Notes under the pieces: model-generated
Database searches by the model: none
What the model was told of the DNA's origin: nothing
The model's input: the letters and a program-made list of their open reading frames with translations, nothing else
Assembly (NCBI GenBank): GCA_029982755.1
Contig: JARRBR010000012.1
Location: forward strand, 1 to 41,056
Length of the DNA stretch: 41,056 bases
Origin: Rhodocyclaceae bacterium
Lineage (GTDB): Bacteria > Pseudomonadota > Gammaproteobacteria > Burkholderiales > Rhodocyclaceae
Reading direction: 5' to 3'
Made by a program: the position numbers and the translations under genes
Shown: one piece after another, positions 7,249 through 39,846 of the stretch
How the letters are laid out: the number at the start of each line of letters is the position of its first letter
Numbering within the stretch: the first letter of the stretch is position 1

Positions 7249-7506
7249 TCAGCAGTCCGGGTTGATCTCGTCGGTGAACTCGCCCGCATCCCATGCGCGG
7301 GCGATGGCGGCATCGAGGCGGGTCAGAAGCTGGTAGAGGGATTCCCCGTCGCGGCGCTGTAGCATCGCCAAGCAATCACTCTCATCACTCGCGACGGCGG
7401 CACACTCAACCGGGCCGACAGCGCCGAGCGAGATGTGGCCACCATTCGAGATCAGCCAGTCCACGTTCTTCAGCACTGCCAGCGGATCGGCGGCGGGATG
7501 CTTCAT
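7249..7506 (-). CDS. Small accessory ORF of the IS66 element
   Basis: Protein of 85 residues starting MKHPAADPLAVLKNVDWLI. The ATG overlaps the tnpC stop as ATGA (7503-7506 region), which suggests translational coupling. It ends only 6 bp inside the left inverted repeat, so it belongs to the element. The sequence is soluble, fairly acidic and predicted largely helical (LQRRDGESLYQLLTRLDAAIARAW). I recognise no catalytic motif. Some IS66 elements carry a fourth ORF here, but its function is not something I can assign from sequence; a role in transposition or its control is only a guess. Confidence 0.8.
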   Translation of the reverse strand: MKHPAADPLAVLKNVDWLISNGGHISLGAVGPVECAAVASDESDCLAMLQRRDGESLYQLLTRLDAAIARAWDAGEFTDEINPDC

Positions 7507-9026
7507 CAGGCGGCCTTCTGTTCGGGAGCCGGCACCTTCAGCTCGACCTTCCACGGCAAGAGCTCATCGACACGATTGACCGGATGCTCGGCGATGCTGC
7601 CGATCACATGACGCAGATAGGCCTCAGGATCGAGGCCGTTGAGCTTGGCCGTGCCGATCAGGCTGTAGATTGCCGCTGCGCGCTCGCCCCCGGCGTCGGA
7701 ACCCGCGAAGAGGAAATTCTTCCGACCCAGGGCGACCGTGCGCAGCGCCCGTTCGGCGGCGTTGTTGTCGATCTCGATGCGCCCGTCGTTGCTGTAGCGC
7801 ACGAGCGCGTCCCAGCGGGCGAGCGCATAGCGGATCGCCTCGGCTAATGCCGATTTCTGCGAGAGTTGTTTGAGCGTGGCGTCGAGCCAGGCGCGTAGCG
7901 CGACCAGCACGGGGCCGGCGCGCGCCTGCCGTTCCGCCCGGCGCAGTTCGGGCGGTTTGCCGCGAATCGACTCTTCCACCGTGTACAGCATGCCGATCTG
8001 CTTGAGCGCCTCGGCCGCCAGGGGCGAGGCCTGCGCCTTGTGCAGGTCGTAGAACTTGCGCCGCACATGCGCCCAGCAGGCGGCTTCCTGGATGGCCCCG
8101 CCCAGATAGAGCGGCGCGAATCCGGCAAAGGCATCGGCCTGCAGCACGCCCTTGAAGTGCGCGAGGTGGCGTTGCGGATGTTCACCCCGGCGATTGGGCG
8201 AGTAGGCGAACCACACGGCCGGCGGCGTCGCGTCGCCTGCGGGGCGGTCGTCACGCACGTAGGTCCACAGCCGACCGGTCCGCGTCTGGCCCTCGCCCGG
8301 CGAGAGCACCGGCACGGGCGTGTCGTCGGCGTGCAGTTTGGTGGCCGAGAGCACATGCTTGCGCAGCGCTTGGACCAACGGACGCAGCAGCGCATTGCAT
8401 TGCCCCACCCAGTCAGCGAGCGTCGAGCGCTCGAGCTCGACGCCCTCGCGAGCGTAGATGGCGCTCTGGCGGTACAGCGGCAGGTGATCGCAATACTTGG
8501 CGACCAGCACATGGGCCAGCAGCCCGGCGCCGGCCAGCCCCCGGGCGATCGGTCGCGCGGGCGCGTTCGCCTGCGCGATCGTGTCGCAGCGGCTGCAGGC
8601 GAACTTCGGGCGCACATGACGGATCACGCGGAAGCTCGCCGGCACGTACTCGAGCATCTCACTAACGGTCTCGCCCAGCTTCTTGAGCGTGCCACCGCAG
8701 GCTGGGCAGTCGCACGCCGAAGGCAAATGCTCCTCGATGTCGCGGGGCAGATGCTCGGGGAGCGGTTTGCGGGGCGGGGGCGCCTCGTTCGTATCGGCCG
8801 GTGCTGCCGCTTCGGTCGGGGTTTCCGCACGCAGGGTTTCGAGCTCTTCGAGCGAGAGCTCGAGCTGGCCGAGCATCTCGTTCATCTGCTCCGAGCTGCG
8901 GCCGAACTGCATGCGGCGCAGCTTGGCGATCAGCAGCTTCAGGTGCTCGATCTCGGCGGCCTGTTCACTCACCTTCGCCCGCAGGGCGATGACTTCGTCA
9001 GGGGCGGAAACAGGCGTGTTCGGCAT
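7506..9026 (-). CDS. tnpC: IS66 transposase TnpC
   Basis: DDE transposase of the element, 506 residues. The N-terminus has a leucine-zipper-like helix (ALRAKVSEQAAEIEHLKLLI), then the IS66 zinc-finger cysteines (CDCPACGG and CSRC), then the catalytic domain with Asp in KLHADDTPVPV, Asp in LQADAFAGF and Glu in the DNNAAERALR region, followed by the short C-terminal IS66 domain. The start is taken at ATG 9026 (MPNTPVSAPDEV); an open frame extends further upstream but overlaps tnpB and has no family-like sequence. There is no frameshift or premature stop. Confidence 0.95.
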   Translation of the reverse strand: MPNTPVSAPDEVIALRAKVSEQAAEIEHLKLLIAKLRRMQFGRSSEQMNEMLGQLELSLEELETLRAETPTEAAAPADTNEAPPPRKPLPEHLPRDIEEHLPSACDCPACGGTLKKLGETVSEMLEYVPASFRVIRHVRPKFACSRCDTIAQANAPARPIARGLAGAGLLAHVLVAKYCDHLPLYRQSAIYAREGVELERSTLADWVGQCNALLRPLVQALRKHVLSATKLHADDTPVPVLSPGEGQTRTGRLWTYVRDDRPAGDATPPAVWFAYSPNRRGEHPQRHLAHFKGVLQADAFAGFAPLYLGGAIQEAACWAHVRRKFYDLHKAQASPLAAEALKQIGMLYTVEESIRGKPPELRRAERQARAGPVLVALRAWLDATLKQLSQKSALAEAIRYALARWDALVRYSNDGRIEIDNNAAERALRTVALGRKNFLFAGSDAGGERAAAIYSLIGTAKLNGLDPEAYLRHVIGSIAEHPVNRVDELLPWKVELKVPAPEQKAA

Positions 9027-9082
9027 GGCGACATGATACCGAAGCAGGCGGCCAAATGCCGTTAAAAGTCGCCTATCTTCCG

Positions 9083-9427
9083 CTATGCAGCCCGATTCGG
9101 TGCCGTTCTGACTGGACGCCGCCAGTCGATGCCCTCGAGCAGCATCGACAACTGGGCCGGCGTCAGCGGCACGGCCCCGTCCGTCACCTGGGGCCAGACG
9201 AACTTGCCCTGTTCGAGCCGCTTGGCGAACAGACACAACCCATCGCCATCCCACCACAGCACCTTGATCCGATCCCCGCGCCGGCCCCGGAACACGAAGA
9301 TCTGACCGCTGAAGGGGTCGGTCTGGAGTTGCGTCTGAACGAGCGCGGCGAGCCCATCGAAGCCGCGCCGCATGTCGGTGATGCCGGCCGCGATCCAGAT
9401 CCGCGTGCCAGAAGGCGGGACGATCAC
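9083..9427 (-). CDS. tnpB: IS66 accessory protein TnpB
   Basis: Protein of 114 residues of the IS66 Orf2 family, known to be required along with TnpA for transposition of IS66-type elements. The hallmarks GITDMRRGFDGLAALV, FVFRGRRGDRIKVLWWDGDG and LTPAQLSMLLEGIDW are present. The start is GTG 9427, overlapping the tnpA stop as GTGA, an arrangement that suggests translational coupling. A 56-bp gap separates it from tnpC. Confidence 0.95.
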   Translation of the reverse strand: MIVPPSGTRIWIAAGITDMRRGFDGLAALVQTQLQTDPFSGQIFVFRGRRGDRIKVLWWDGDGLCLFAKRLEQGKFVWPQVTDGAVPLTPAQLSMLLEGIDWRRPVRTAPNRAA

Positions 9428-28644: not shown

Positions 28645-30336
28645 TCAGTCGGTCCGGCCGAAGGCGTCGATGAGGATGGGCGTCAGCGCATGGGTCGGGC
28701 CGAGGGGGTCGGCCGGCGGGTGCAGGCCCGCGACGAAGCCGGCGGACTCGAAGCGTTCGAGCAGCGCAGGGTTGTCGGTGATGACATGGACCGGCACCTC
28801 CCACGGCTGGTCGGGGCCGCTCACGGTGCCGATCGGCTGGTGATCGCCGATCACGATCGTCACCAGGTCTGCGGGCGCGTGGCGGGCGAGATAGTCCGCA
28901 AGCCAGTCGAACTGGTAGCGCATCGAGGCGATGTAGGCGGGCAGGGGGTTCGACCAGCTCGTCGGCACCGCTTCGGCCGCCTGTACCTCCTCGGCGCTGA
29001 AGGCCTCGGGGCCGAGCAGGCTCACCCAGTCGTCACTGTATGGCGGCAGCGCCCGAAAAGGCGCGTGCGTGGTGACGGTCGCAAACACGATTAGCCGCGA
29101 CGGCCGCACGGCGCCGCCTTCGATCGGGGGGCGCGGGCCGGTCGCGCCCGCATCGGAACCGGTGCTGGCGTCATGCGCGGTGCGGAAATCGCCGCCGAAC
29201 TCCTGCGCATGGATCAGCGCCATCGAGGCCTGGTCCGGGATGCGCCAGAAGCCGAAGGGGCGACCGCTGTAGCCGATGCGCGCGGCGTCCGCGTAGCGGT
29301 CGAAGCCGTAAAAGGCACCCTCCGGCCACGCCAGCTGGATGCCCGGCAACCAGCCGACGGTGCGGTAGCCGTTTTCCGCGAAATGGCGCACCAGGGTCGG
29401 CCGGTCGGTGGTGAGCAGCAGCTGGTAATCGGCCGGGTCGCGCATGTCCAGGCCCGACAGCAGGCCGGCATGGGCGAGCCAGGAGGCGCCGCCGAAGGTG
29501 GGCGACACCAGCCGCGCGGAGACCACCTGCCGGCCGCTGGCGGCGATCGCGGCGGCGAGCCGGGCGCGGTGGCCGTCCAGGGCGCGGGCAATCTCGGGGC
29601 GGTCGAGGGTCACGGCGCCATAGGCCTCGGCGAACACGATCAGCACGTCCGCGCCGCGCAGCCCGGCGAGCGTGCCGGCGAAGGTCGGTCCCGGGCCGAG
29701 TCGTTCGGCGCCGGCGGTGCGCGACAGGGCGGTCGACAGCAGCCGGTACTGTTCGACCACCATGGCGCTCACGGGCGCTGCGAAGAGCTGCGCCGGCGGT
29801 CGGCCGCCGACGGCCTGCGCCAGCCACGACACCAGGGTGACGCCCGCGAAGGCCAGCATCAGTCCGCGCTCGGGCCGTCCTTCCGCGCCGCGGGCGAGCA
29901 CGTCGATACAGCGGCGCACGATCAGGTACACGATGCTGAGCACGAGAACGCCGCCGGCCAGCACCAGCAGCACCCGGGTCGTGGCGCCGGCGCTGCCGCC
30001 CATGCGGAGTACGGCGCCCAGATGGGGCACATCCCAGTAGAGATTGATTCGGCGCCCGAGCACGGCGGGCACGGTGACGTCGATGTAATGCAGCACCACC
30101 CACAGCGTTCCGACGACCGCGAGCACGGCCTCCAGCCGGCGCGGCACCCGCCTGCCCACCAGCGCCCAGGTCGCGATCAGGGCCACCGCGGGTGCGAGCT
30201 CGGGCGCGAGGCGCCATTCCACCGCGGGCCACAGCGTCGGCCAGGCATTGCCGTGGGCGAGCAGGACGTTCAGCACGCACAGCGCGAACGCGACGCCGGC
30301 CAGCGAGTCGAGCCGCGAGCGCGGCGCGGGGCTCAT
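28645..30336 (-). CDS. Membrane sulfatase / LTA-synthase-like phosphotransferase
   Basis: Protein of 563 residues from ATG 30336. About five transmembrane helices occupy the first 190 residues, followed by a periplasmic alkaline-phosphatase-superfamily domain. Its motifs are ADVLIVFAEAYGAVTL (first metal site), SPTFGGASWLAHAGLLSG (region of the nucleophile Ser/Thr), VTTHAPFRALPPY and VTIVIGDHQPIG (late metal site). Relatives move phosphoglycerol or phosphoethanolamine from phospholipids to glycans, or hydrolyse sulfate esters. The enzyme type here is inferred. It is divergent from the creatininase-family gene (86 bp apart) and may belong to the adjoining lipid/pterin-like gene group. Confidence 0.8.
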   Translation of the reverse strand: MSPAPRSRLDSLAGVAFALCVLNVLLAHGNAWPTLWPAVEWRLAPELAPAVALIATWALVGRRVPRRLEAVLAVVGTLWVVLHYIDVTVPAVLGRRINLYWDVPHLGAVLRMGGSAGATTRVLLVLAGGVLVLSIVYLIVRRCIDVLARGAEGRPERGLMLAFAGVTLVSWLAQAVGGRPPAQLFAAPVSAMVVEQYRLLSTALSRTAGAERLGPGPTFAGTLAGLRGADVLIVFAEAYGAVTLDRPEIARALDGHRARLAAAIAASGRQVVSARLVSPTFGGASWLAHAGLLSGLDMRDPADYQLLLTTDRPTLVRHFAENGYRTVGWLPGIQLAWPEGAFYGFDRYADAARIGYSGRPFGFWRIPDQASMALIHAQEFGGDFRTAHDASTGSDAGATGPRPPIEGGAVRPSRLIVFATVTTHAPFRALPPYSDDWVSLLGPEAFSAEEVQAAEAVPTSWSNPLPAYIASMRYQFDWLADYLARHAPADLVTIVIGDHQPIGTVSGPDQPWEVPVHVITDNPALLERFESAGFVAGLHPPADPLGPTHALTPILIDAFGRTD

Positions 30337-30350
30337 GCGGCGTCCGCTGC

Positions 30351-30372
30351 GCGCCGCCGCGCGCTGCGGCGC
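30351..30372. repeat. Inverted repeat in the divergent sulfatase/creatininase intergenic region
   Basis: GCGCCGC (30351-30357) and GCGGCGC (30366-30372) pair over an 8-nt loop. TATGAT, a five-of-six -10 match for the plus-strand gene, follows at about 30382-30387, but no clear -35 box precedes it. Confidence 0.35.
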
Positions 30373-30422
30373 AGGCAGGCTATGATCGCTGGCGTCGACA
30401 GCCGCCCGTGGAAACCGCACGC

Positions 30423-31253
30423 ATGATCGCCGCACCTGCACTGCCCTGGTGGCAGGACCTCACGCCGCGCCAGATCGCCCGTCTTGCCGAAGAGGACGGC
30501 GTCGCGGTCCTGCCGCTGGCGGCCATCGAACAGCACGGCGAACATCTGCCGCTGTCCACCGACCTCGACATCGCGCTCGGCCTGCTGCATGCCGCGCTGC
30601 CGAAGCTGCGCCCGGGGTTGCCGGTGTGCGTGCTGCCGCCGCTCGCCGTGGGGCTGAGCCTGGAGCACTGCGCCTTCGCGGGCACGCTGAGCCTGAGCCC
30701 CGAGACCGCGCTCGCGAGCCTGGTGGAACTGGGTGACAGCGTGGCGCGGGCGGGCTTCCGGCGCCTGGTGCTGTTCAACAGCCATGGCGGCAACAAGGCC
30801 CTCGTCGACCTCGCCGCGCTGAAGCTGCGCGTGGCGCACCGCATGCTGGTGGTGCGGGCGAACTACTTCCGTTTCGCCCCCCCGCCCGATGCGCTGCCCG
30901 CGGCCGAACTGCGCCACGGCCTGCATGGTGGCGCGCTGGAGACGGCGATGATGCTGCATCTGGCGCCGCACAAGGTGCGTACCGAGGTGATCGCGGACTT
31001 CGCGTCGATCGGCCGCGACATGGCCGCGCACGGGAGCGTGCTCGGACCGGAAGGCGAGGCGGGTTTCGGGTGGATGGCGCAGGACCTGAACCCGGGCGGC
31101 GCGACCGGGGACGCCCGCCTGGGCGATGCCGTCCTCGGCGCGCGCTTGGTCGATCATTTTGCTGGCGTCCTCGCGCGCGTCATCGAGGATGCGCGCGATT
31201 TCGCGCTTGCAGGACTGGTACCGGCCGAGGACCGTGCAGCACCACCGGGCTGA
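30423..31253 (+). CDS. Creatininase-family amidohydrolase
   Basis: Di-metal amidohydrolase of 276 residues. The signature EQHGEHLPLSTDLDIA (about 36-51) supplies Glu, His and Asp ligands; NSHGGNKALVD (about 119-129) and HGLHGGALETAMMLH (about 160-174) complete the site. The family includes creatininase, the mycofactocin peptidase MftE and archaeal ArfB, which removes a formyl group from the ring-opened GTP product. Next to a GTP cyclohydrolase II-like gene, an ArfB-like deformylase or another C-N hydrolase acting on a pyrimidine is an attractive inference, not proof. ATG 30423 is used; the upstream frame is not family-like. Confidence 0.87.
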   Translation: MIAAPALPWWQDLTPRQIARLAEEDGVAVLPLAAIEQHGEHLPLSTDLDIALGLLHAALPKLRPGLPVCVLPPLAVGLSLEHCAFAGTLSLSPETALASLVELGDSVARAGFRRLVLFNSHGGNKALVDLAALKLRVAHRMLVVRANYFRFAPPPDALPAAELRHGLHGGALETAMMLHLAPHKVRTEVIADFASIGRDMAAHGSVLGPEGEAGFGWMAQDLNPGGATGDARLGDAVLGARLVDHFAGVLARVIEDARDFALAGLVPAEDRAAPPG

Positions 31254-31330
31254 CGTGCCAGCGCGGCCGGTGTCCGCGGGCCGCTCCGCCGGGCTCCCGC
31301 ATCGCCGTGACCGCAGCCCGCTCGGCGCGC

Positions 31331-32488
31331 TCAGAGGTGGCTGGCGGCGCCCGGTGCCGGCAGGCGCTCGGGTTCGACGGATGCCGGCTCGTCCTGCTCC
31401 GACAGCAGCTCGTGCAGCCAGTGGCCATGGCGATTGGCCTTGGTGCGCAGGTAGCGCTGGTTCTGGGTCGTGACCTCGCCGTAGATCGCCTGGCGGGCGA
31501 CGACGTTGATGCCTGCGTGCTGCAGGGCCTCGACCTTGCTCGGGTTGTTGGTGAGCAGCAGAACCTTCTGCACGCCGAGCTGGTCGAGCATCTCGTGGGC
31601 GACGCGGAAGTCGCGTTCGTCCTTGGAGAAGCCGATCACCTGGTCGGCGTCGATGGTGTCCAGGCCTTCGTCCTGCAGGCCATAGGCGCGCAGCTTGTTG
31701 GCGAGTCCGATGCCGCGGCCCTCCTGCGACAGGTAGAGCAGGATGCCGCCACCCTGGGCGTTGATCGCGGCGACGCCGCGGCGCAGCTGCTCGCCGCAGT
31801 CGCAGCGCAGGCTGCCGAAGAGGTCGCCGGTGAGGCAGGACGAGTGCAGGCGCACCGGCACCGCCTCGGGCCAGCGGCTGGCGTCGCCGATGACGATCGC
31901 CACGTGCTCGTGCACGCCGTCGGCCTCGCGGAAGAGCACGAAGCGGCTGTTCTCGGCCTCGGCGAGCGGAACGCGCGCCTCGCTGATGCGGGTGAGGGCG
32001 CCCGGACCGGTCTCGCACAACCGCAGCACTTCGGCGGCGCCGACGGCGAGCAGGTTGCCGCTGGCCACCTCGGCGGCCACGGCCGCGGCTTGCTCGGGGG
32101 CTACGGTGCAGGCGAGCGCGGCGGGGACGAGCTGGGCGCGGCCGAGCAGGCGCAGTGCGGTGCGCTCGACCGCGGTGGCCGGAGTCTCGGTGGTGCCGGC
32201 GGGCAGGGTGGCGCCGCGCATCCAGGCGAGATCGCGCAGGGTGTGGGCCGAAGGCAGCGGCAACAGGGTGAGCGCGCGCGCCTCGGAGGCACCGCGGTGG
32301 CCGAGGGCGGCCATGCGATGCTGGCTGAGCACCAGCCGCGCGGGCGAGCCGGTCAGGGATTGCAGCGCGGCGAGCGCGTCGTCATCGAGGCCCTCGACCG
32401 CCTGGATCACGATGTCACCGGCGGGTTGGCGAAGCAGGACCGGAAGTCCGCGCCGCAGGTCGAAGAGGGCACGCTCGGCTTGGCGCAT
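31331..32488 (-). CDS. ribA: GTP cyclohydrolase II with degenerate RibB-like N-terminal domain
   Basis: Protein of 385 residues. The C-terminal half (about 170-365) is a canonical GTP cyclohydrolase II, which opens GTP at C8 to give formate and a diaminopyrimidine phosphate. Zinc ligands are Cys218, Cys229 and Cys231 (SSCLTGDLFGSLRCDCG), and SQEGRGIGL lies at 254-262. The N-terminal 165 residues resemble the outline of 3,4-dihydroxybutanone phosphate synthase (ALFDLRRGLPVLL), but its acidic active-site motif (DDEDRENEGDL type) is absent, so that half is probably inactive. It is divergent from the RibD-like gene across a 95-bp region with a long inverted repeat. It could serve riboflavin synthesis or a specialised pathway. 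Confidence 0.88.
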   Translation of the reverse strand: MRQAERALFDLRRGLPVLLRQPAGDIVIQAVEGLDDDALAALQSLTGSPARLVLSQHRMAALGHRGASEARALTLLPLPSAHTLRDLAWMRGATLPAGTTETPATAVERTALRLLGRAQLVPAALACTVAPEQAAAVAAEVASGNLLAVGAAEVLRLCETGPGALTRISEARVPLAEAENSRFVLFREADGVHEHVAIVIGDASRWPEAVPVRLHSSCLTGDLFGSLRCDCGEQLRRGVAAINAQGGGILLYLSQEGRGIGLANKLRAYGLQDEGLDTIDADQVIGFSKDERDFRVAHEMLDQLGVQKVLLLTNNPSKVEALQHAGINVVARQAIYGEVTTQNQRYLRTKANRHGHWLHELLSEQDEPASVEPERLPAPGAASHL

Positions 32489-32511
32489 TTGTTTTTCTCC
32501 GTCGGGATGAG

Positions 32512-32567
32512 TACGGTCGCCCGCGTGCGATGCGCGTTCCGTGCGAGCTTCGCGGGTGCGGACCGTA
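32512..32567. promoter_or_regulatory. Extended inverted repeat between divergent ribA and ribD-like genes
   Basis: TACGGTC (32512-32518) pairs with GACCGTA (32561-32567), and CCCGCG (32520-32525) with CGCGGG (32551-32556), making 13 bp of dyad symmetry centred near 32539 in a 95-bp intergenic region. It may be an operator shared by both genes or a structured leader. It does not carry the conserved FMN-riboswitch sequence. Confidence 0.5.
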
Positions 32568-32583
32568 TTTTAAGGAATGATGA

Positions 32584-33534
32584 ATGTCGGGAAGACTTCT
32601 ACCAGATTGGGGCTGGGCCTGCATCCTGCAAGCACGTGAGTGTGATTGGGCCGCGCGCCGCGCGACAAGTTTCATCGTTGGCGGGGTCGAGATCGAAATT
32701 CGGGCCGGCGGCGCCTGGCGCTGCGCCGCCGGGCTGTCCGCGGAGACGGCTGCGCTGCTCGAGCTCTTCCTGCCGCTGGTGGCGCAGGCGGGTCCGCTGG
32801 TGATCGCCCAACTCGGGCAGAGCCTGGACGGCCGCATCGCCACCGAGAGCGGCGCGTCGCACTACATCAACGACGTCGAGGCGCGCACGCATCTGCATCG
32901 CCTGCGTGCAATCGTCGATGCGGTGGTGGTGGGCGTGGGCACGGTGAACGCGGACGACCCGCAGCTGACCGTGCGCCATGTGCGCGGCGCCAGTCCGCTG
33001 CGCGTGGTGCTCGATCCACGGCGGCGGGCGAGGACGCAGGCGCGTTTGTTTCATGACGGCGCGGCGCCCACGCTGCATCTGGTGGCGCCGGAGCGGGAGA
33101 CGCGGGCCGACGGGGGGGCAGGGAGTCCTCCGCTGGTAGCGGATGCGGCGCAGGTGCAGGGCGCGTTGCCGCCCTCGCCGCTGTCTCCCGGCGAGGTCCG
33201 GCAGTGCGTCCTGCCCTGCGCCGACGGGGGTTTCGAGCCTGCGGCGGTGCTGCGCTGGCTGCACGGGACCGGATACCGGCGGGTGCTGGTGGAAGGCGGT
33301 GGCGTGACCGTGTCGCGTTTCCTGCACACGGGCGTGCTCGACCGGCTGCATGTGATGGTGGCACCCCTGCTCATCGGTTCGGGCCGGCCCGGCCTGGTAT
33401 TGCCGCCTATCGATACGCTGAGCGAGGCGATCCGCCCGGCCGCGCGGACCTTTGCCTGTGGCGGGGACATGCTGTTCGACCTCGACTTGCGTGGACGCGC
33501 CGGGCAGGGCGCGGACGGGGCGGGCGCGCACTAG
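32584..33534 (+). CDS. Stand-alone RibD C-terminal-type reductase
   Basis: Protein of 316 residues with the RibD_C (dihydrofolate-reductase-like, NADPH-dependent) fold: QSLDGRIA (79-86), GVGTVNADDPQLTVR (117-131), VLVEGGGVTVSRFL and VAPLLIGSGRPG. In RibD this domain reduces the ribosyl side chain of the deaminated pyrimidine. The cytidine-deaminase domain of bifunctional RibD is absent; instead there are about 70 N-terminal residues (GWACILQARECDWAARR) that I do not recognise. ATG 32584 follows AAGGA at 32572-32576. With the adjacent GTP cyclohydrolase it suggests reduction of a GTP-derived pyrimidine or pterin. Confidence 0.85.
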   Translation: MSGRLLPDWGWACILQARECDWAARRATSFIVGGVEIEIRAGGAWRCAAGLSAETAALLELFLPLVAQAGPLVIAQLGQSLDGRIATESGASHYINDVEARTHLHRLRAIVDAVVVGVGTVNADDPQLTVRHVRGASPLRVVLDPRRRARTQARLFHDGAAPTLHLVAPERETRADGGAGSPPLVADAAQVQGALPPSPLSPGEVRQCVLPCADGGFEPAAVLRWLHGTGYRRVLVEGGGVTVSRFLHTGVLDRLHVMVAPLLIGSGRPGLVLPPIDTLSEAIRPAARTFACGGDMLFDLDLRGRAGQGADGAGAH

Positions 33535-33552
33535 CGCTGCGGTGCGCCCCGT

Positions 33553-34596
33553 TCAGCCATGGGGTGTCGCGTGCCGGACCGGATGACGGAGCAGCAGCGC
33601 GCCGGGCAGGCTGGACAGCAGCACGACCACGCCGTAGCCGATCGAGATCGCCACGCCCTGCGCGGGGTCGAGGCCGGCGGCCGTCCATACCAGGGCGGCC
33701 GTGCCCTCGCGGATGCCCCAGCCTGCCACCGACAGCGGGATCGCCATCGCCAGCAGGACCCAGGGCACCAGCGGCGCGGTCGTCGCGATGGCGGTGTCGA
33801 TGCCGATCATGCGCATGCAGCACAGATAGACGCCGACATAGCTGGCGACGATCAGCAGGGAGGCGAGCAACTGGCGCACGAACACCTCGCGCGCGAGCAG
33901 GGCCTGGTAAAGCGCGTTTCCAAACCGGGCGAAGTGGCGCCGGCCCCGCCATAGCGCGATGCCGACGAGCACCGGCAGCAGCGCAAGCGCGAGGGGCAAG
34001 GATGGACTCGGTCCGCCGGCGGACGCGCTCAGCAGTTTCGCGCTCGCCGCCTGCAGTTCGGGCGAGAAGGGCAGTGTCGCCAGCACGACGGCGAGCAAGG
34101 CGAGCTGACCCGAGGCGCGCTCGATGAGGACCGCATGCCAGGCAGTGATCCCGACCGGCGTTGCGTCGCCCGCTTCGCTCCGCGGACGACGGGCGTGGCG
34201 CCAGGCGCGCGCCGCGTCGCCCATGACGCCGCCGGGCAGGATCTGGTTGAGGAAGGTGGCGACGTAGTACTCGCACAGCGCCTCGCCGAAGCGCAGCTGC
34301 GACCCGAGGCGCGCGGCGGTGAGCCGCCAGCGCCAGGCGGACAGGGCGACCTGGGGAAAGCTCAGGGCCAGCGCCGCCGCCAGCCATGCTGGCTCCGGTG
34401 CGGAGAAGGCCGCGGCGAGGGTTCGCGGTTCGAGCCAGAGCAGGATGGCGGCCAGCAGGCCCAGGCTCGCCACCGGGCGCAGGACGAGCTTAAGCCGGCG
34501 CGCGGCCGGGGGCGCAGCGGTGCCGGGACTCGGGGCGGGCACGTGCGATGAGGAGGAAGGCGGCGAAGGAGCGTGCGCGGGGGTGGGCGAAGGCAT
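33553..34596 (-). CDS. LPG-synthase/flippase-type membrane protein (UPF0104)
   Basis: Polytopic membrane protein of 347 residues with about eight transmembrane helices and a Pro/Ser-rich cytoplasmic N-terminus (1-35). The motifs FLNQILPGGVMGDAARAWRH and VAGWGIREGTAALVW are the conserved halves of the lysylphosphatidylglycerol-synthase transmembrane family, whose members include lipid flippases and glycan-lipid processing proteins. No soluble aminoacyl-transferase domain is present. ATG 34596 is chosen; the long open frame upstream is Arg/Pro-rich and not family-like. Last gene of a minus-strand set starting with the dehydrogenase at 38190; a transport or flipping role for a product made by its neighbours is inferred. 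Confidence 0.82.
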   Translation of the reverse strand: MPSPTPAHAPSPPSSSSHVPAPSPGTAAPPAARRLKLVLRPVASLGLLAAILLWLEPRTLAAAFSAPEPAWLAAALALSFPQVALSAWRWRLTAARLGSQLRFGEALCEYYVATFLNQILPGGVMGDAARAWRHARRPRSEAGDATPVGITAWHAVLIERASGQLALLAVVLATLPFSPELQAASAKLLSASAGGPSPSLPLALALLPVLVGIALWRGRRHFARFGNALYQALLAREVFVRQLLASLLIVASYVGVYLCCMRMIGIDTAIATTAPLVPWVLLAMAIPLSVAGWGIREGTAALVWTAAGLDPAQGVAISIGYGVVVLLSSLPGALLLRHPVRHATPHG

Positions 34597-34616
34597 CGGA
34601 CCTCGAAGGCGTCGGT

Positions 34617-35543
34617 TCAGCGCACGACCCGGGGCGGGGTGGCGAACAGGTCGATGTGGCCGACTTCGAGCGTGCCGCCGCCATGGGGGACACACTCCGC
34701 CGTTCGCCGGGCGTGCCACGCCGTGATGCGCGCAGCTGCGTCCGGCCGCTGGGCACGGGCGGCGTCGCGCCAGCCGTCGATCAGTGCGCGGGCGAGGGCG
34801 GCGTCTGCGGGCTCGGCCAGGCGAAGCCGCCATGGACTTGCCGCGAGCCGGACCTCGAAGCCGCGCTGCTCGAGGCACGCGGCGAGGGCGGGTGCCGCGT
34901 CCGGGCCGAGCGCGGCGCCCAGCCCCTTGTCGCGGCGCTGATGGGCGTTGAAGGCCGCGCGCACGAGATCGTCATCCGCCGCGGTGGGCGGGGCCTCTGC
35001 CGCGGTCGTCGCGGCGCCGGACAGGAAGCGCCAGCTTCCGTCCACGCTCAGCGTCACCAGCAGGGCGCAGCGGGCTGCGGCGCAGGCGTCGGCGAGACGC
35101 TCGAGCCAGGCGGCGTCCACCAGGTCGAGCAGGGCCGACGCACAGACGAGGTCAGCCCCGGCAAGCGTCCCGGCATCGAGCCGGGCAAGATCCTGGGAGC
35201 GCGTGCTTACGCCGACCGCTCCGCCATCGGCAGCGCGCAAGCCGGCGCATGCCGCGCGCGCCCGGGCGAGGAGGCCGCTGTCGTGATCGATCAGGGTCCA
35301 GTCCTGGGGGCCGGGCAGGCGCGGGGCGAGGTGGCGGGGGTTGGCGCCGCTGCCGCTGCCCAGGTCGATGAGGCGCAGGCGCTGCGGCGGGGCAGTCGTC
35401 GCCTGCCGCTGGCGCAGCCACTCGGCGGCCCGCGCCTCCAGTTCGGGCGCGCGGGCCGCGCCGTCTGCAGCCCGGCGCAGCGCGAGCCAGCTCGCGTCGA
35501 AGCAGGCGTCGGGGTGGGGCTGGGCGTGCTCGTTCGGGTTCAT
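34617..35543 (-). CDS. Class I SAM-dependent methyltransferase
   Basis: Soluble protein of 308 residues. The SAM-binding motif I is LRLIDLGSGSGANPRHLAPR (about 58-77), followed by the acidic end of strand 2 (LIDHDSG) and ADLVCASALLDLV as motif IV region. The rest is divergent, with many Ala and Asp residues, and gives no clue to the substrate. It starts 29 bp after the glycosyltransferase stop and ends 20 bp before the flippase-type gene, so it is probably part of one operon. Methylation of a small-molecule ring or sugar is inferred from context only. Confidence 0.8.
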   Translation of the reverse strand: MNPNEHAQPHPDACFDASWLALRRAADGAARAPELEARAAEWLRQRQATTAPPQRLRLIDLGSGSGANPRHLAPRLPGPQDWTLIDHDSGLLARARAACAGLRAADGGAVGVSTRSQDLARLDAGTLAGADLVCASALLDLVDAAWLERLADACAAARCALLVTLSVDGSWRFLSGAATTAAEAPPTAADDDLVRAAFNAHQRRDKGLGAALGPDAAPALAACLEQRGFEVRLAASPWRLRLAEPADAALARALIDGWRDAARAQRPDAAARITAWHARRTAECVPHGGGTLEVGHIDLFATPPRVVR

Positions 35544-35571
35544 CGCATGACTCGTGGGGCGTGCGAAGCGT

Positions 35572-36648
35572 TCACGGGCGCCTCGGGGTGGAGGTCGATG
35601 AATGTTCCGGGTCGCCCAGCGCAGCGGCGAACTCGGCGCCGGCAAGGGGCCAGCCGCGTAGCGAGGCGCGCGCCCTGCGGGCGCCGTCGCGCAGGGCGTG
35701 GCGGCAGTGGCGATCGCTGGTCAGCGCGGCCAGCGCGTCGGCGAGCGCATCGACATCGCCGGGCGGGACGGCGAGTCCGGCACCGGCAGGGAGTGTTTCG
35801 GTCAGGGCGCCGCCGGTGGTCGTGAGCACCGGCAGCCCGGCCGAGATCGCCTCGGTCACCACCATGCCGTAGCCCTCGTAGTGCGAAGGCAGCAGGAACA
35901 GATCTGCGCCGGCATAGGCCGCCCGCAACTGCGCGTCGTCGCATTCGCCATGGAGCCGGATGCGGCCGTCGAGACCGGTTTCGGTGACGAGCGCCGCGAG
36001 CCCGTGGGCGAAGTCCGGCTCGCGCGTGTGGCTGCCGATGAAGTCGCACTGCCAGGGCAGTCCGCGCACGCGGTGCAGGGCGCGTACGAGCAGGTCCTGG
36101 CCCTTGCGCGGGCTGAGGGTGCCGACGCACAGCAGCCGGGGCGGCTCGCCGTCGGCCATGGCCAGCGGCAGCGGCGTCACCCCGGGTTCGACCGTGCGCA
36201 CCCGAGCGGGCTGGACGCCGAAGTCCGCGATCCGGCGCGCGGTGAAGCGGCTGGTCGTGATCACGCGGTCGGCGGCCGCGAGCGCGGCGCGCTCGCTGGC
36301 GAGCAGGCAGTGCCGGCGCGCCACGCTCAACCCGCGCTCGTCGCCGAGCGGGTGGTGCACCAGCGCGACGAGCCCGAGACGGTGGCTGTGACGGACCGCG
36401 ACCTCGGGCAGGCCGCCGAGCGCCAGCCCATCGACGACCACCTGGCGTCCGTTGGGCAGTGCGGCGAGGGTGCGCTCGAGGGCGTCGCGCGCGCTCGTGT
36501 CGGCCTCGGGGAATCGCCCGGGCAGGCCATGCACGTCGACTGTCCACCCGAGCCGGCGCAGCTCGACGACGATGTGGGCGTCGTACAGATAGCCGCCGGT
36601 GCGTTGCCCGGGGTCGCCCGGCACGATGAAGGCGAGGCGCTGCGTCAT
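35572..36648 (-). CDS. Glycosyltransferase family 4 protein
   Basis: GT-B-fold retaining glycosyltransferase of 358 residues. The N-domain begins LAFIVPGDPGQRTGGYLYD with the Gly-Gly acceptor loop; the C-domain has VGTLSPRKGQDLLVRAL, FIGSHTREPDF, and the donor-site motif SHYEGYGMVVTEAISAG (EX7E). The protein is cytoplasmic or membrane-associated. Donor sugar and acceptor are unknown. Within the minus-strand group it follows the PTPS-like gene after 112 bp and precedes the methyltransferase, suggesting the operon's product is a glycoside. Confidence 0.88.
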   Translation of the reverse strand: MTQRLAFIVPGDPGQRTGGYLYDAHIVVELRRLGWTVDVHGLPGRFPEADTSARDALERTLAALPNGRQVVVDGLALGGLPEVAVRHSHRLGLVALVHHPLGDERGLSVARRHCLLASERAALAAADRVITTSRFTARRIADFGVQPARVRTVEPGVTPLPLAMADGEPPRLLCVGTLSPRKGQDLLVRALHRVRGLPWQCDFIGSHTREPDFAHGLAALVTETGLDGRIRLHGECDDAQLRAAYAGADLFLLPSHYEGYGMVVTEAISAGLPVLTTTGGALTETLPAGAGLAVPPGDVDALADALAALTSDRHCRHALRDGARRARASLRGWPLAGAEFAAALGDPEHSSTSTPRRP

Positions 36649-36760
36649 GCGCTCGACGCCGCAGGGCCTGCAAGGTGTCCGCGCACAAGGCGGCAGGTGT
36701 CGTCCCGAGTCGATCCGGCCGATGCGCGCGCCGCGTAGTCCTGGGCTGCCGTCGCCTGCA

Positions 36761-37159
36761 TCACAGCGCGCCCTCGTAGCTCGCCCAGGCGATGTGCGAT
36801 TCGTGCAGGGTCACCTTCAGGCGTGCCAGGCCCTGTGCGCCGCTGCCGAGCCGGCCGGCTCGGATCGCCGCCGCCATGCGGTCGAAGATCACTCGCGCCA
36901 TGAACTCGGTGGTGGTGTTGCGGCCGCGGAACGCCGGCTCCTCGTCCAGGTTGCGGAAGTTGAGGTCGGCGAGCACGGTCTTGAGCGTGTCGCCGGCGAG
37001 GCCGATGTCGACCACCAGGCCGTCGGCGTCGAGCTCGCTGCGCTGGAAGCACGCGTCGACGATGTAGGTGGCGCCGTGCATGCGTTGCGCCGGGCCGAAG
37101 ATGGCGCCCTGGAAGCTGTGGGCGATCATGATGTGGTCGCGAACGGTCAGGCTGTACAT
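36761..37159 (-). CDS. 6-pyruvoyltetrahydropterin synthase/QueD homologue with altered active site
   Basis: Protein of 132 residues aligning over its whole length to the PTPS/QueD fold. Zinc-site His14 (MIAHSF) and His28 remain, but the HGH motif is HGA (Ala30). The catalytic Cys expected four residues before His28 is Ala24, and the catalytic Asp-His pair (LDHxxLN in QueD) is replaced by LNFRNLD. The pterin-anchoring Glu near the end is kept (LHES, Glu120). So pterin or purine-like binding is plausible, but the known chemistry is not. Its ATG overlaps the end of the dehydrogenase gene by 13 bp, implying coupled expression. Family placement is firm; function is unknown. Confidence 0.82.
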
Positions 37160-38190
37160 GAAGCGTCTCCGGATTGTGTGTCGGGGTCGTCCCGCGGGGC
37201 GGTGCCCGGGTAGCGGATGCGTTCGCACAGTGCGCCCGCCGGCTCGAAGGCGAGGCGCTGCATCAGTGCCGGCAGGTCGTGGAAGGGGGTCTCTCCGCTG
37301 AACAGCGCGTCGAGCCGTGGATCGACGAGCTGGGACAGCGCAAGTTCCATGCGCCGGCGATAGGACCAGCGCGGGCTCTTCTGCGGCGGGACGTGGCCGA
37401 CCTGGCTCGATTTGATCTCGAGCCGGCGGGCGTGGAAGGCGCCGCCGAGCGGCACGCTCACCGCGGTGCGCCCGTACCAGCTCATCTCGATCACGGTGGC
37501 CTCCTGCCCGGCGAGGTCGAGCGCGGTGGTGAGCCCGGCCGGATGGCCGCTGGCGTGGAAGACCAGATCGCATTCCCCGCGGGCGGCCGCGGGCAGGCGG
37601 TGGGTGAGGCCGAGGGCGTCGGCGAGCCGGGCACGGCCGGGATCGATGTCGATCAGCTCCACCTCGGCGCCGGGCACGCGCGCGCACAGCCATGCGACCA
37701 GGCTGCCCACCACTCCGGCGCCGACGACCGCGATGCGGTCGCCCATGCCCGGCGCGCCGTCCCAGCATGCGTTGAGCGCGGTCTCCATGTTGGCCGCCAG
37801 CACCGCGCGCGCCGGCGGCAGCCCGGGCGGCAGCGGGATCACGGCGCTCGCGGGCACGACATAGCGCGCCTGGTGCGGGTGCAGGCAGAACACGACGCGA
37901 CCACGCAGTGCGGCCGCTTCCGCGCCGGCCCCGTCCTCGACCACGCCCACGCTGATGTAGCCGTACTTCACCGGCCCGGGGAAGTCGCCCTCCTGGAAGG
38001 GCGCACGCATGCGCTGGTATTCGCTCTCGGGAACCTCGCCGCGAAAGACGAGGCTCTCGGTGCCGCGGCTGACCGCGCCGTAGAGGCTGCGCACGAGCAC
38101 TTCGCCTGCAGCGGGCGGGCGCAGGGCCGCGGGGCGCAGTTCGCCATGGCCGGGGGATACGGTCCAGAAGGCGAGGTCGATGTCGGCCAT
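37147..38190 (-). CDS. MDR-family dehydrogenase without classical zinc ligands
   Basis: Medium-chain dehydrogenase/reductase of 347 residues, annotated in relatives as zinc-binding alcohol dehydrogenase. The cofactor motif [15 protein letters not shown] is intact, with the acidic strand end [16 protein letters not shown] for NAD binding. However, the catalytic zinc positions appear lost: the usual Cys site reads AVSRGTES and the GHE motif reads [20 protein letters not shown] and [11 protein letters not shown] are distinctive for the subgroup. ATG 38190 is chosen; the open frame upstream is Pro/Ser-rich and not family-like. First gene of the minus-strand set; its end overlaps the PTPS-like start. 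Confidence 0.85.
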
Positions 38191-38203
38191 CCTGTGGTCC
38201 TCG

Positions 38204-38298
38204 GATCGAAGCGGGCGCGTGCGGCATGTCGGCGCCGCCGCGCTGTGGCCCGCGCGGCGCTTGTGCGAACCCTTTGCCGCGGCGGATGATCGAAGCGG
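38204..38298. repeat. Two 11-bp direct repeats in the divergent dehydrogenase/CDP-alcohol transferase region
   Basis: GATCGAAGCGG occurs at 38204-38214 and 38288-38298, start to start 84 bp, close to eight helical turns. Both lie upstream of the minus-strand operon. A small hairpin CGGGTC-TGCG-GACCCG follows at 38323-38338. Regulator-binding sites are possible but unproven. Confidence 0.35.
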
Positions 38299-38380
38299 AC
38301 ATGGTAGCAGGGGTGCGGGATCCGGGTCTGCGGACCCGACGTGAGGCGGCGAGGGCTGAGGATTGTTCGAGGAAGGCGGA

Positions 38381-39112
38381 TTGGCTTCGGGGCGCAGGTC
38401 GATGCCGGTCGCGGTGCTGGAGGTGCTGGCCGCGCTCGGCATGCTGCTCGGCCTGGGTGCGCTCGGCGGGATGCTCGGCGCGCTGCCGCTCCAGGCGATG
38501 TGGGCGGCCGCGGGCGTGCTGCTCGCGGTGTGCGCCCTGGTCCTTCACCAATGGCCGGATCTGCGCACCACCCTGGGGCCGGCGAACCGGGTGACGCTGG
38601 GACGGGCGGTGCTGGTGGCGCTGGTGGCTGGTGCGCTCGCGGCGCCGGGGTGGGCGCAGCAGCATGCGACATGGCTTGCGGCGGTGGCGGGGATCGCGCT
38701 CGCGCTCGACGGCGTGGATGGCTGGGTGGCGCGCCGCTGGCGCTGCGCCAGTGCCTTCGGTGCGCGCTTCGACATGGAGCTCGACGCCTTCCTGATCCTG
38801 GTGCTGTGCGCGCATCTGGTCGCCATGGGCAAGGCCGGGAGCTGGGTGCTGGCGATCGGCGCGATGCGCTACGGCTTCGTCGCCGCGATGCGCGTGTGGC
38901 CCTGGCTCGACGGCCCCCTGCCCGAGAGCGGCCGGCGCAAGCTGGTGTGCGTGTTGCAGGTCGCCAGCCTGCTGCTGTGCCTGTTGCCGGTGGCCGATGC
39001 GCCCTCGGCGGCGGCGCTGCTGGCGCTGGCACTCGGCCTGCTGGCGTGGTCGTTCGCGGTCGATGTGCGCTGGCGGTACGTGAACGGCCGCTCGGCGGGA
39101 AGAATCGGTTGA
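38381..39112 (+). CDS. CDP-alcohol phosphatidyltransferase family protein
   Basis: Integral membrane enzyme of about 243 residues with roughly six hydrophobic segments. The family signature D-x2-D-G-x2-A-R-x8-G-x3-D-x3-D is complete in [21 protein letters not shown] followed by DMELD, so a phospho-alcohol transfer from a CDP-linked lipid or alcohol is expected. Substrates are unknown; it is not clearly PgsA or PssA. The start is uncertain: TTG 38381 has AGGAAGG just upstream, TTG 38363 and ATG 38402 are alternatives. Divergent from the dehydrogenase operon, it may provide the lipid part of that group's product. Confidence 0.82.
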
Positions 39113-39170
39113 AATACGGTGCATTGAATCACGCCCGACCAGTGGACGAAGTGCGAAGGAGGAGGACACG

Positions 39171-39794
39171 ATGAACGCAAGAACCGCTTTTCCTGCCCTG
39201 CGCCGGGTGCTGGCCGCGGGCGCATTCCTGGCCGCGGTCGGGGCCGGCCCGGCGTGGGCCGAGCCGCGCACCTACACGATCGATCCGGATCATTTCTCGA
39301 TCGCCTTCCAGGTCGAACATCTGGGCTATGCGGACGTGATCGGCATGTTCCTCAAGGGCAGCGGCAGCTTCGTCTATGACGAGGCGACGCGCACGCTGTC
39401 ATCCGGGCGCGTGGTGGTGGCCGCCGACAGCGTGTTCAGCAACCACAAGGCACGCGACCGGCACGTGCGCGACAGCGATTTCCTCGACGCCGACCGTCAT
39501 CCGGAGATCGTGTTCGAGGCTACCGCCTTCGAGCCGGTGATGGAAAACGACGGGCGGCTGGACGGACGCCTGAGCGGCAAGCTCACGCTGCTCGGCCAGA
39601 CCCATCCGGTGACGCTGGAGGTGTCGCTGAACAAGGCGGCGACCTACCCCTTCGGTCATCGCAAGCACACCCTGGGAATCTCGGCCCGCACCAGCCTGCT
39701 GCGCAGCCAGTGGGGCATGAGCTACGGGGTGGACCGCGGCATGGTGGGCGACGAGGTGCTGCTCAGCTTCGAGCTCGAGGCGACCCGCGACTGA
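39171..39794 (+). CDS. YceI family periplasmic protein
   Basis: Exported protein of 207 residues with a cleavable signal peptide (about 1-30, ending GPAWA before [11 protein letters not shown]). The lipocalin-like YceI fold is marked by [49 protein letters not shown], and [19 protein letters not shown]. Relatives bind isoprenoid or other amphiphilic molecules in the periplasm. A strong ribosome-binding site (GGAGGA) precedes ATG 39171. It converges on moaA. Confidence 0.93.
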
Positions 39795-39805
39795 GCCGCG
39801 AAGAA

Positions 39806-39838
39806 CGCGGTGCCCGGTCCGATGACCTGGGCACCGCG
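39806..39838. terminator. Bidirectional terminator between yceI-like gene and moaA
   Basis: CGCGGTGCCC (39806-39815) and GGGCACCGCG (39829-39838) form a perfect 10-bp stem with a 13-nt loop, 12 bp after the YceI stop and 9 bp from the moaA stop. A short T-rich run (GTCTTT) follows on the plus strand and TTCTT on the minus strand, so it can serve both convergent genes. Confidence 0.7.
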
Positions 39839-39846
39839 GGCGTCTT

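Follow-up and report, generated by a model that had tools for sequence, protein, structure and literature searches.

Cyanobacteria make pterin glycosides by a route consisting of GTP cyclohydrolase (GCH) I, PTPS-II, sepiapterin reductase, and a GT4 glycosyltransferase. A separate subfamily, PTPS-IV, is characterized by the signature FGPAQ and, in the section of the 2017 AGeNNT paper devoted to it, forms cluster-node 62 with 561 sequences and with PF00925 and PF01872 proteins as genomic neighbors (PMC5445326). The creatininase family, as treated in the relevant section of a further report, includes BrbF, an assayed formamidase of 2-amino-5-formylamino-6-ribosylamino-4(3H)-pyrimidinone 5'-phosphate (AFRPP; PMC9478397). 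Here, we analyzed a 41,056-nucleotide stretch of DNA from a Rhodocyclaceae bacterium (contig JARRBR010000012.1, positions 1 to 41,056; referred to as the window), in which a PTPS-IV gene is grouped with genes for an MDR dehydrogenase, a GT4 glycosyltransferase, a methyltransferase, a stand-alone RibD_C reductase, GCH II, a creatininase-family amidohydrolase, and several membrane proteins. We propose that this mobile accessory cluster probably diverts a ring-opened product of GTP to a modified 2-amino-4-oxo pyrimidine or pterin. Its recurrence in distant bacteria and on plasmids suggests that a widespread metabolite, for which we found no identification, is built from GTP, the starting material of vitamin B2, and would carry a sugar and a methyl group.

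The PTPS-IV and MDR genes form the center of a recurrent cluster

The initial annotation of this DNA had named co-occurrence in other genomes as the test of a dedicated pathway, and the genes indeed recur together in Pseudomonadota, beyond Betaproteobacteria, and on plasmids. For an unbiased test, 397 Pseudomonadota genomes, including that of the window, were searched with PTPS and MDR profiles. PTPS-type matches (E ≤ 0.001) were found in 59 genomes, 32 of which reach E ≤ 2.7e-43, with the next best at 8.2e-14. The identical 32 genomes carry the MDR gene (E ≤ 1e-20), adjacent to PTPS-IV in each (the MDR match of G282 is in two pieces). Since both genes occur in the same 32 of 397 genomes and are neighbors in every one, a chance grouping is ruled out.

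Across the 31 evenly drawn Pseudomonadota loci other than that of the window, GT4 is present in 30, the methyltransferase (counted by domain) in 29, with L149 and L150 lacking it, and RibD_C in 27; MDR, PTPS, GT4, methyltransferase, and RibD_C all occur together in 24. The remaining genes are less frequent, namely those for a CDP-alcohol phosphatidyltransferase (15 loci), a flippase-like protein (14), GCH II (13), the creatininase (7), a sulfatase-like protein (6), and a YceI-family protein (4). Every flippase gene is accompanied by a CDP-alcohol gene (14/14), and all 18 loci without GCH II retain MDR, PTPS, GT4, and methyltransferase. A de novo search for recurrent neighbor families, with an overlap filter excluding antisense open reading frames (ORFs), added an MdoH-like GT2 (13 loci), an FkbM methyltransferase (10), and cytochrome b561 (7). 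Membrane genes characterize one version of the locus, and the MdoH-like GT2 with cytochrome b561 another. The membrane version accounts for about half of the Pseudomonadota loci and for 22 of the 23 sampled Actinomycetota loci, the CDP-alcohol and flippase genes each being present in 22.

These Actinomycetota loci stem from a scan of named genomes, which returned at least 589 confirmed stretches; the best 80, chosen by MDR, were examined, some lying on short contigs and some belonging to genomes that are also in the evenly drawn collection. By title, they comprise 51 Pseudomonadota, 23 Actinomycetota, 4 Gemmatimonadota, and 2 Acidobacteriota. PTPS and GT4 occur in 78 each, the methyltransferase in 72, CDP-alcohol in 71, RibD_C in 51, flippase in 49, creatininase in 44, GCH II in 42, YceI in 23, and the sulfatase-like gene in 22. 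In L113 and L078, the MDR gene occurs with CDP-alcohol and sulfatase-like genes, with neither PTPS nor GT4 in the locus.

Closer to the window, a search of its own genome and 100 relatives gave 18 strong MDR matches (own and 17 others, E ≤ 2.3e-118; next 9.0e-8), found in 15 of 28 same-genus genomes, one same-family genome, and one same-order genome. The cluster is split in G017 (L204 and L048), where an MDR-PTPS-GT4 block lies ~45 kb from a block of RibD_C, GCH II, creatininase, and sulfatase-like genes. A 9.8 kb contig of G016 (L198) carries creatininase, GCH II, and a window-like GT4 together without MDR or PTPS, possibly a decayed cluster.

PTPS-IV and MDR lack the catalytic residues implied by their names

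The whole window PTPS is matched by PDB entry 3d7j, SCO6650 (E 6.5e-55), and FGPAQ and HGAT are common to both. In an alignment of 126 PTPS rows, which includes the window and has some genomes twice, the Ala of FGPAQ is kept throughout, as expected for PTPS-IV, and Ala occupies the positions of the QueD catalytic Cys and the third zinc His in 126/126 rows. The SCO6650 structure reportedly contains no zinc and has a pterin-type pocket, and the protein is said to have no PTPS activity; the Ala positions agree with this loss of zinc and activity. His14, His28, Asp72, and Glu120 are likewise invariant in all 126 rows, and we take these residues to include the pterin anchor. Judged by its residues, the PTPS-IV pocket would still fit a pterin-like ring, without the catalytic Cys or the full zinc site. 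The separate QueD of this genome keeps the CxxxHGH motif of PTPS-I, whereas the window PTPS does not; the motifs of PTPS-II (CxxxxxHGH) and PTPS-III (ExxHGH) are also absent from this type of protein, in which Ala replaces the second His of HGH (126/126).

The catalytic motif of zinc alcohol dehydrogenases consists of a Cys and GHE. The MDR protein has SRGTE and KYGY in their place, each tallied position of which is conserved in at least 120 of 129 rows, and thus does not qualify as a zinc alcohol dehydrogenase. The database names 6-carboxytetrahydropterin synthase and zinc-binding alcohol dehydrogenase are therefore questionable, as the residues do not support them.

RibD_C retains reductase residues and the creatininase its metal ligands

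A bifunctional RibD is encoded on another contig of the genome, which makes the cluster RibD_C an extra copy. Lys151 of Bacillus subtilis RibG reportedly selects the deaminated substrate; it presumably corresponds to Lys156 of the genome's RibD, and Glu290 to Glu294. At the Lys position, the cluster RibD_C has Gln, and the tally over 93 rows is Q 81, H 9, S 2, and R 1. The RibD reductase positions are kept (Arg in 92/93 and Glu, residue 294 of the genome's RibD, in 93/93), and the best PDB match, 6p8c, is named as a reductase of the undeaminated compound. Lacking both the deaminase domain and the reductase Lys, the protein does not conform to a riboflavin RibD. In G116, the cluster-type RibD_C is located ~62 kb from the core. 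A different RibD_C, with Ser in place of the Lys, is encoded in the Streptomyces-type genomes G488-G490 (L220-L222). Its gene is no more than ~1 kb away from an additional GCH II gene in G488 and G489, and this protein might substitute for the cluster RibD_C.

The metal-ligand positions of the creatininase are kept in 65/65 rows, and by family and ligands the window protein is a candidate AFRPP formamidase.

GCH II is a shared riboflavin gene in this genome

The window GCH II possesses the zinc Cys and EGRGIGL motifs of the family and is the only intact GCH II found in the genome, which is 86% complete. The one further PF00925 match in this genome (contig C113 of G000, L002) is a fusion of RibB with a GCH II-like part that has neither the Cys nor the EGR motif. 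Of 23 same-genus genomes searched, counting that of the window, 21 encode the long GCH II, whether or not they carry the cluster. Only a RibB-type match was obtained in G020 and G024, which reflects either gaps in the assemblies or a true lack of the gene; G025 encodes a short RibA as well. Thirteen same-genus genomes have no strong MDR match, and the GCH II region was examined in 12 of them. In five of these (G011, G014, G018, G022, and G025), the aligned ends of GCH II and moaA are ~160-280 bases apart; apart from purT in three, no other cluster family was detected in the interval or next to it. Four others (G001, G006, G013, and G016) have the creatininase beside GCH II, G016 keeping GT4 too, and neither moaA nor creatininase was seen at GCH II in G003, G021 (a 4 kb contig), and G028. 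The same site in cluster-free relatives, together with the sole intact copy, identifies GCH II as a core gene with an accessory block around it. Its assignment to a dedicated pathway set in the initial annotation is thus not supported for this genome. That annotation had also considered that RibA and RibD_C might be the only riboflavin copies and the minus-strand set independent of them: this does not hold for RibD_C; it does for GCH II, without which the core persists in the 18 loci mentioned above.

Other carriers differ in this respect. All 8 tested Halomonadaceae-type genomes that have the long GCH II in the cluster encode a short RibA besides (frames of 212-256 aa), and the cluster copy is one of several in 4/4 Streptomyces-type genomes tested, with 2 to 4 PF00925 matches each. 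It is the only PF00925 match above 120 bits in seven other Pseudomonadota (G112, G147, G191, G271, G282, G339, and G456).

At the position distinguishing GCH II from GCH III, 49 loci have Tyr, 18 Met, and 2 His, the Met and His types all being from Actinomycetota. The creatininase accompanies 38/49 Tyr-type, 18/18 Met-type, and 2/2 His-type loci, which are related rather than independent. SCO6655, a Met-type paralogue, is said to keep the formyl group in a GCH III-like manner, and such a formyl-retaining enzyme fits a formamidase partner. The window enzyme has Tyr and thus is not of this GCH III-like type.

The cluster is carried by plasmids

PTPS-IV is encoded on 20 of 72,556 plasmid records. 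MDR adjoins PTPS on all six plasmids read in detail, with GT4, methyltransferase, and RibD genes nearby on most. A 59 kb mobilizable Microbacterium plasmid carries CDP-alcohol, MDR, PTPS, GT4, methyltransferase, flippase, and RibD genes; the Agrobacterium pAt locus also has sulfatase, flippase, CDP-alcohol, ribA, and RibD. Methylosinus pOB3b1 carries the cluster with mdoH, Streptomyces fungicidicus p1 has creatininase and ribA, with no RibD gene among those listed, and a Thiodictyon plasmid is the sixth. On the Palleronia plasmid, GT4 is ~4 kb distant from the core; this version (L213) also has genes for inositol monophosphatase, PfkB kinase, and FkbM, which may hint at the nature of the sugar. 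A search of 50,697 phage records gave no PTPS match at E ≤ 1e-20. The 23 Actinomycetota form a single group in a quick tree built from MDR, PTPS, and GT4 (107 rows, SH-aLRT support only). The best reading of these data is an accessory, horizontally mobile cluster that recurs in distant bacteria and on plasmids.

A proposed pathway and its alternatives

From the observed gene content, conservation, co-occurrence, plasmid carriage, and active-site residues, we infer a substrate, an order of steps, a product, and a lipid link. GTP would be opened by GCH II, any leftover formyl group being removed by the creatininase-family enzyme, and 2,5-diamino-6-ribosylamino-4(3H)-pyrimidinone 5'-phosphate (DARoPP) would leave the riboflavin route ahead of deamination. 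Where present, RibD_C may reduce the ribosylamino side chain without earlier deamination. PTPS-IV, with no catalytic Cys and an incomplete zinc site, and the MDR lacking a zinc motif would then remodel the 2-amino-4-oxo pyrimidine or pterin, which could be glycosylated by GT4 and methylated by the methyltransferase. In the window version, the flippase-like and CDP-alcohol genes may link the product to, or move it at, the membrane. The product may be either a ribityl pyrimidine or pterin or a pterin formed by reclosure of the ring.

Several observations weigh against this proposal. No cluster-type RibD_C was detected in G420, G430, or 3/4 Streptomyces-type genomes (best matches ≤ 89 bits versus ≥ 289), nor was one observed at 19 of the 23 actinomycete loci; with several carriers lacking it, ribosyl reduction is not an obligatory step. 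GCH II and creatininase occur in only 13 and 7 of the 31 evenly drawn loci, and two of the 80 named loci (L113, and L078 on its short contig) have MDR without PTPS or GT4. A Tyr-type GCH II should deformylate alone, leaving the creatininase without a clear job in the window. The resemblance of GT4 to pterin glucosyltransferases, detailed below, is weak and generic. The initial annotation had envisaged a modified, glycosylated pyrimidine or pterin, flipped or attached to lipid: the gene grouping is consistent with its first part, and the lipid and flipping part can only be inferred, with flippase in 14/31 and CDP-alcohol in 15/31 loci.

It is possible, though not the likelier case, that the functional unit is a small soluble core of MDR, PTPS, GT4, methyltransferase, and RibD_C, with the sulfatase-like, YceI, flippase, and CDP-alcohol genes as hitch-hiking neighbors. 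Each membrane gene occurs in under half of the evenly drawn loci, and others have the MdoH-like GT2 and cytochrome b561 instead; however, the strict pairing of flippase with CDP-alcohol, the presence of each in nearly all actinomycete loci, and their position beside the core on the Microbacterium plasmid argue against mere hitch-hiking.

More doubtful is a glycosylated tetrahydropterin made by a new entry, in which PTPS-IV recloses DARoPP (Amadori rearrangement and cyclization), MDR acts like sepiapterin reductase, GT4 like a pterin glucosyltransferase, and RibD_C as a side-chain or pterin reductase. The MDR-PTPS-GT4-methyltransferase core does occur without cluster-type RibD_C, PTPS Glu120 is invariant, and the 55 PDB matches of GT4 include two kinds of tetrahydrobiopterin glucosyltransferase (5zer, 2.6e-6; 9v0l, 3.7e-5). 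Yet GT4 is matched more closely by other enzymes (6kih, 5.1e-19), neither the catalytic Cys nor the third zinc ligand is present in PTPS-IV, and RibD_C keeps the reductase Arg and Glu of RibD.

A role of PTPS-IV in the synthesis of a deazaflavin (F420-type) cofactor appears very improbable. The part of a 2016 review that concerns PTPS-IV assigns the subfamily to F420, citing unpublished work (PMC5041015), and FGPAQ is its signature according to the PTPS-IV section of PMC5445326. In addition, RibD_C and GCH II sit upstream of deazaflavin, cofD is present in 4/4 cluster-bearing Streptomyces-type genomes, and an F420-dependent oxidoreductase gene lies two genes from ribA on the S. fungicidicus plasmid. 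The review's PTPS-IV may, however, be a different, archaeal group, and cofD, the one gene searched (cofC, cofG, and cofH were not), was detected in just one of the 32 Pseudomonadota genomes with the cluster, the window's incomplete genome included (E ≤ 0.001); the lack of such a match in the other 31 disfavors an F420 role.

Equally hard to sustain is an extra supply of riboflavin precursors by GCH II, creatininase, and RibD_C among unrelated neighbors: although the sole intact GCH II occupies the same site in cluster-free relatives and four other such relatives keep the creatininase beside it, ribB, ribH, and ribE are not among the ten window proteins or the listed recurrent families, RibD_C has neither deaminase domain nor Lys, and the other core genes stay together where GCH II is missing.

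We therefore return to the diversion of a ring-opened GTP product by the PTPS-IV cluster. In its boldest form, which we put forward tentatively, it would yield a new class of GTP-derived glycoconjugate that is methylated, glycosylated and, in one version, lipid-joined and flipped, spread over at least four phyla and plasmids, with a PTPS without its catalytic site and a zinc-free MDR performing chemistry new to either fold. To our knowledge, such chemistry has not been described for PTPS or MDR folds. Were the product to serve as a cofactor, pigment, or surface lipid, many bacteria of soil and saline habitats would contain it, as would Streptomyces; it would be easily overlooked because the cluster genes bear riboflavin and queuosine names.

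Organization of the window locus

All ten genes of the initial annotation were located by ORF placement at 28645-39112 of the window, their identities being supported by Pfam and, for the sulfatase-like protein, by a structure model (Table 1). Five form a compact minus-strand run at 38190-33553 with one overlap, as had been described: the MDR and PTPS frames share 13 bases. CDP-alcohol and YceI genes diverge from MDR, and RibD_C, GCH II, creatininase, and sulfatase-like genes occupy the opposite flank. Several gene starts were chosen among candidate start codons, and a promoter and terminator scan of 33400-39200 found none.

Table 1. Features of the PTPS-IV locus and their positions in the window.
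Feature	Position	Strand	Basis and remarks
Alkaline-phosphatase-superfamily membrane protein (EptA/LtaS-like; "sulfatase"), optional	28645-30336	-	Structure-model matches
Creatininase-family amidohydrolase, candidate AFRPP formamidase	30423-31253	+	Pfam creatininase 3e-61
GTP cyclohydrolase II, long type, Tyr at GCH II/III position	31331-32488	-	Pfam GTP_cyclohydro2 1.3e-55
Accessory segment, lacking between GCH II and moaA in five cluster-free relatives	32510-39845		Junction comparison
Stand-alone RibD_C reductase	32584-33534	+	Pfam RibD_C 4.8e-36; start uncertain, Pfam match from residue 71
Flippase-like membrane protein	33553-34596	-	Pfam LPG_synthase_TM 3.8e-36; start uncertain
Class I S-adenosylmethionine (SAM) methyltransferase	34617-35543	-	Weak Pfam match, under curated cut-off; structure model
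GT4 glycosyltransferase	35572-36648	-	Pfam Glycos_transf_1 4.7e-30
PTPS-IV (FGPAQ) homologue, near S. coelicolor SCO6650	36761-37159	-	Pfam PTPS 7.3e-23
MDR (BchC-like) dehydrogenase without zinc motif, first gene of core run	37147-38190	-	Pfam score under curated cut-off
CDP-alcohol phosphatidyltransferase, divergent from MDR	38402-39112	+	Pfam CDP-OH_P_transf 2.3e-17
YceI-family protein, optional, closes block, absent from initial annotation	39171-39794	+	Pfam 2.2e-38

The sulfatase-like protein has no Pfam or NCBIfam match at E ≤ 0.01. Its model (mean pLDDT 90.6) matches MCR-1 (E 9.2e-8), LtaP (1.5e-6), and LtaS (2.7e-6), consistent with a predicted membrane enzyme of the alkaline phosphatase superfamily. 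The methyltransferase model (pLDDT 92) matches varied SAM methyltransferases, with no clear single partner enzyme among them in the fold search. Elsewhere in the window, a minus-strand ORF of 583 aa (7506-9257) resembles, by eye and without a search, an IS66-type transposase.

Comparison with known systems

Part of this neighborhood is already published, since the PTPS-IV subfamily and its GCH II and RibD_C neighbors were reported in 2017. Like that node, the window set combines FGPAQ with PF00925 and PF01872 neighbors, which occur in 13/31 and 27/31 evenly drawn loci, respectively. The PTPS-IV section of that paper names no MDR, GT4, methyltransferase, creatininase, flippase, or CDP-alcohol partner and no product, and it labels the PF00925 neighbor as GTP cyclohydrolase I/FolE2, unlike the GCH II found here (PMC5445326). 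The initial annotation had regarded the combination as one without a known product; in agreement, we recognized no paper describing the whole gene set or a product in the open-licence literature, a scope that leaves out most subscription papers and all bioRxiv preprints.

BrbF resembles the window creatininase in family, metal ligands, and an opened-GTP substrate, a likeness by family and ligands only; according to the section on it, BrbF serves riboflavin synthesis (PMC9478397). SCO6650, matched over the whole length by the window PTPS, was deposited as an uncharacterized protein, and the 3d7j structure can now be placed among constant partner genes, with a likely pool of substrates and with species suited to testing it. 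With RibD and archaeal-type DARoPP reductases (6p8c and 2azn), the window RibD_C shares the domain and the Glu position; it differs from RibD in lacking the deaminase domain, in the Gln at the Lys position, and in its location within a PTPS-IV cluster. The cyanobacterial pterin glycoside route follows a similar order of GTP opening, PTPS fold, oxidoreductase, and GT4. In contrast to that route, however, the cluster described here employs GCH II instead of GCH I, a PTPS-IV without the catalytic Cys and full zinc site, and an MDR rather than an SDR oxidoreductase.

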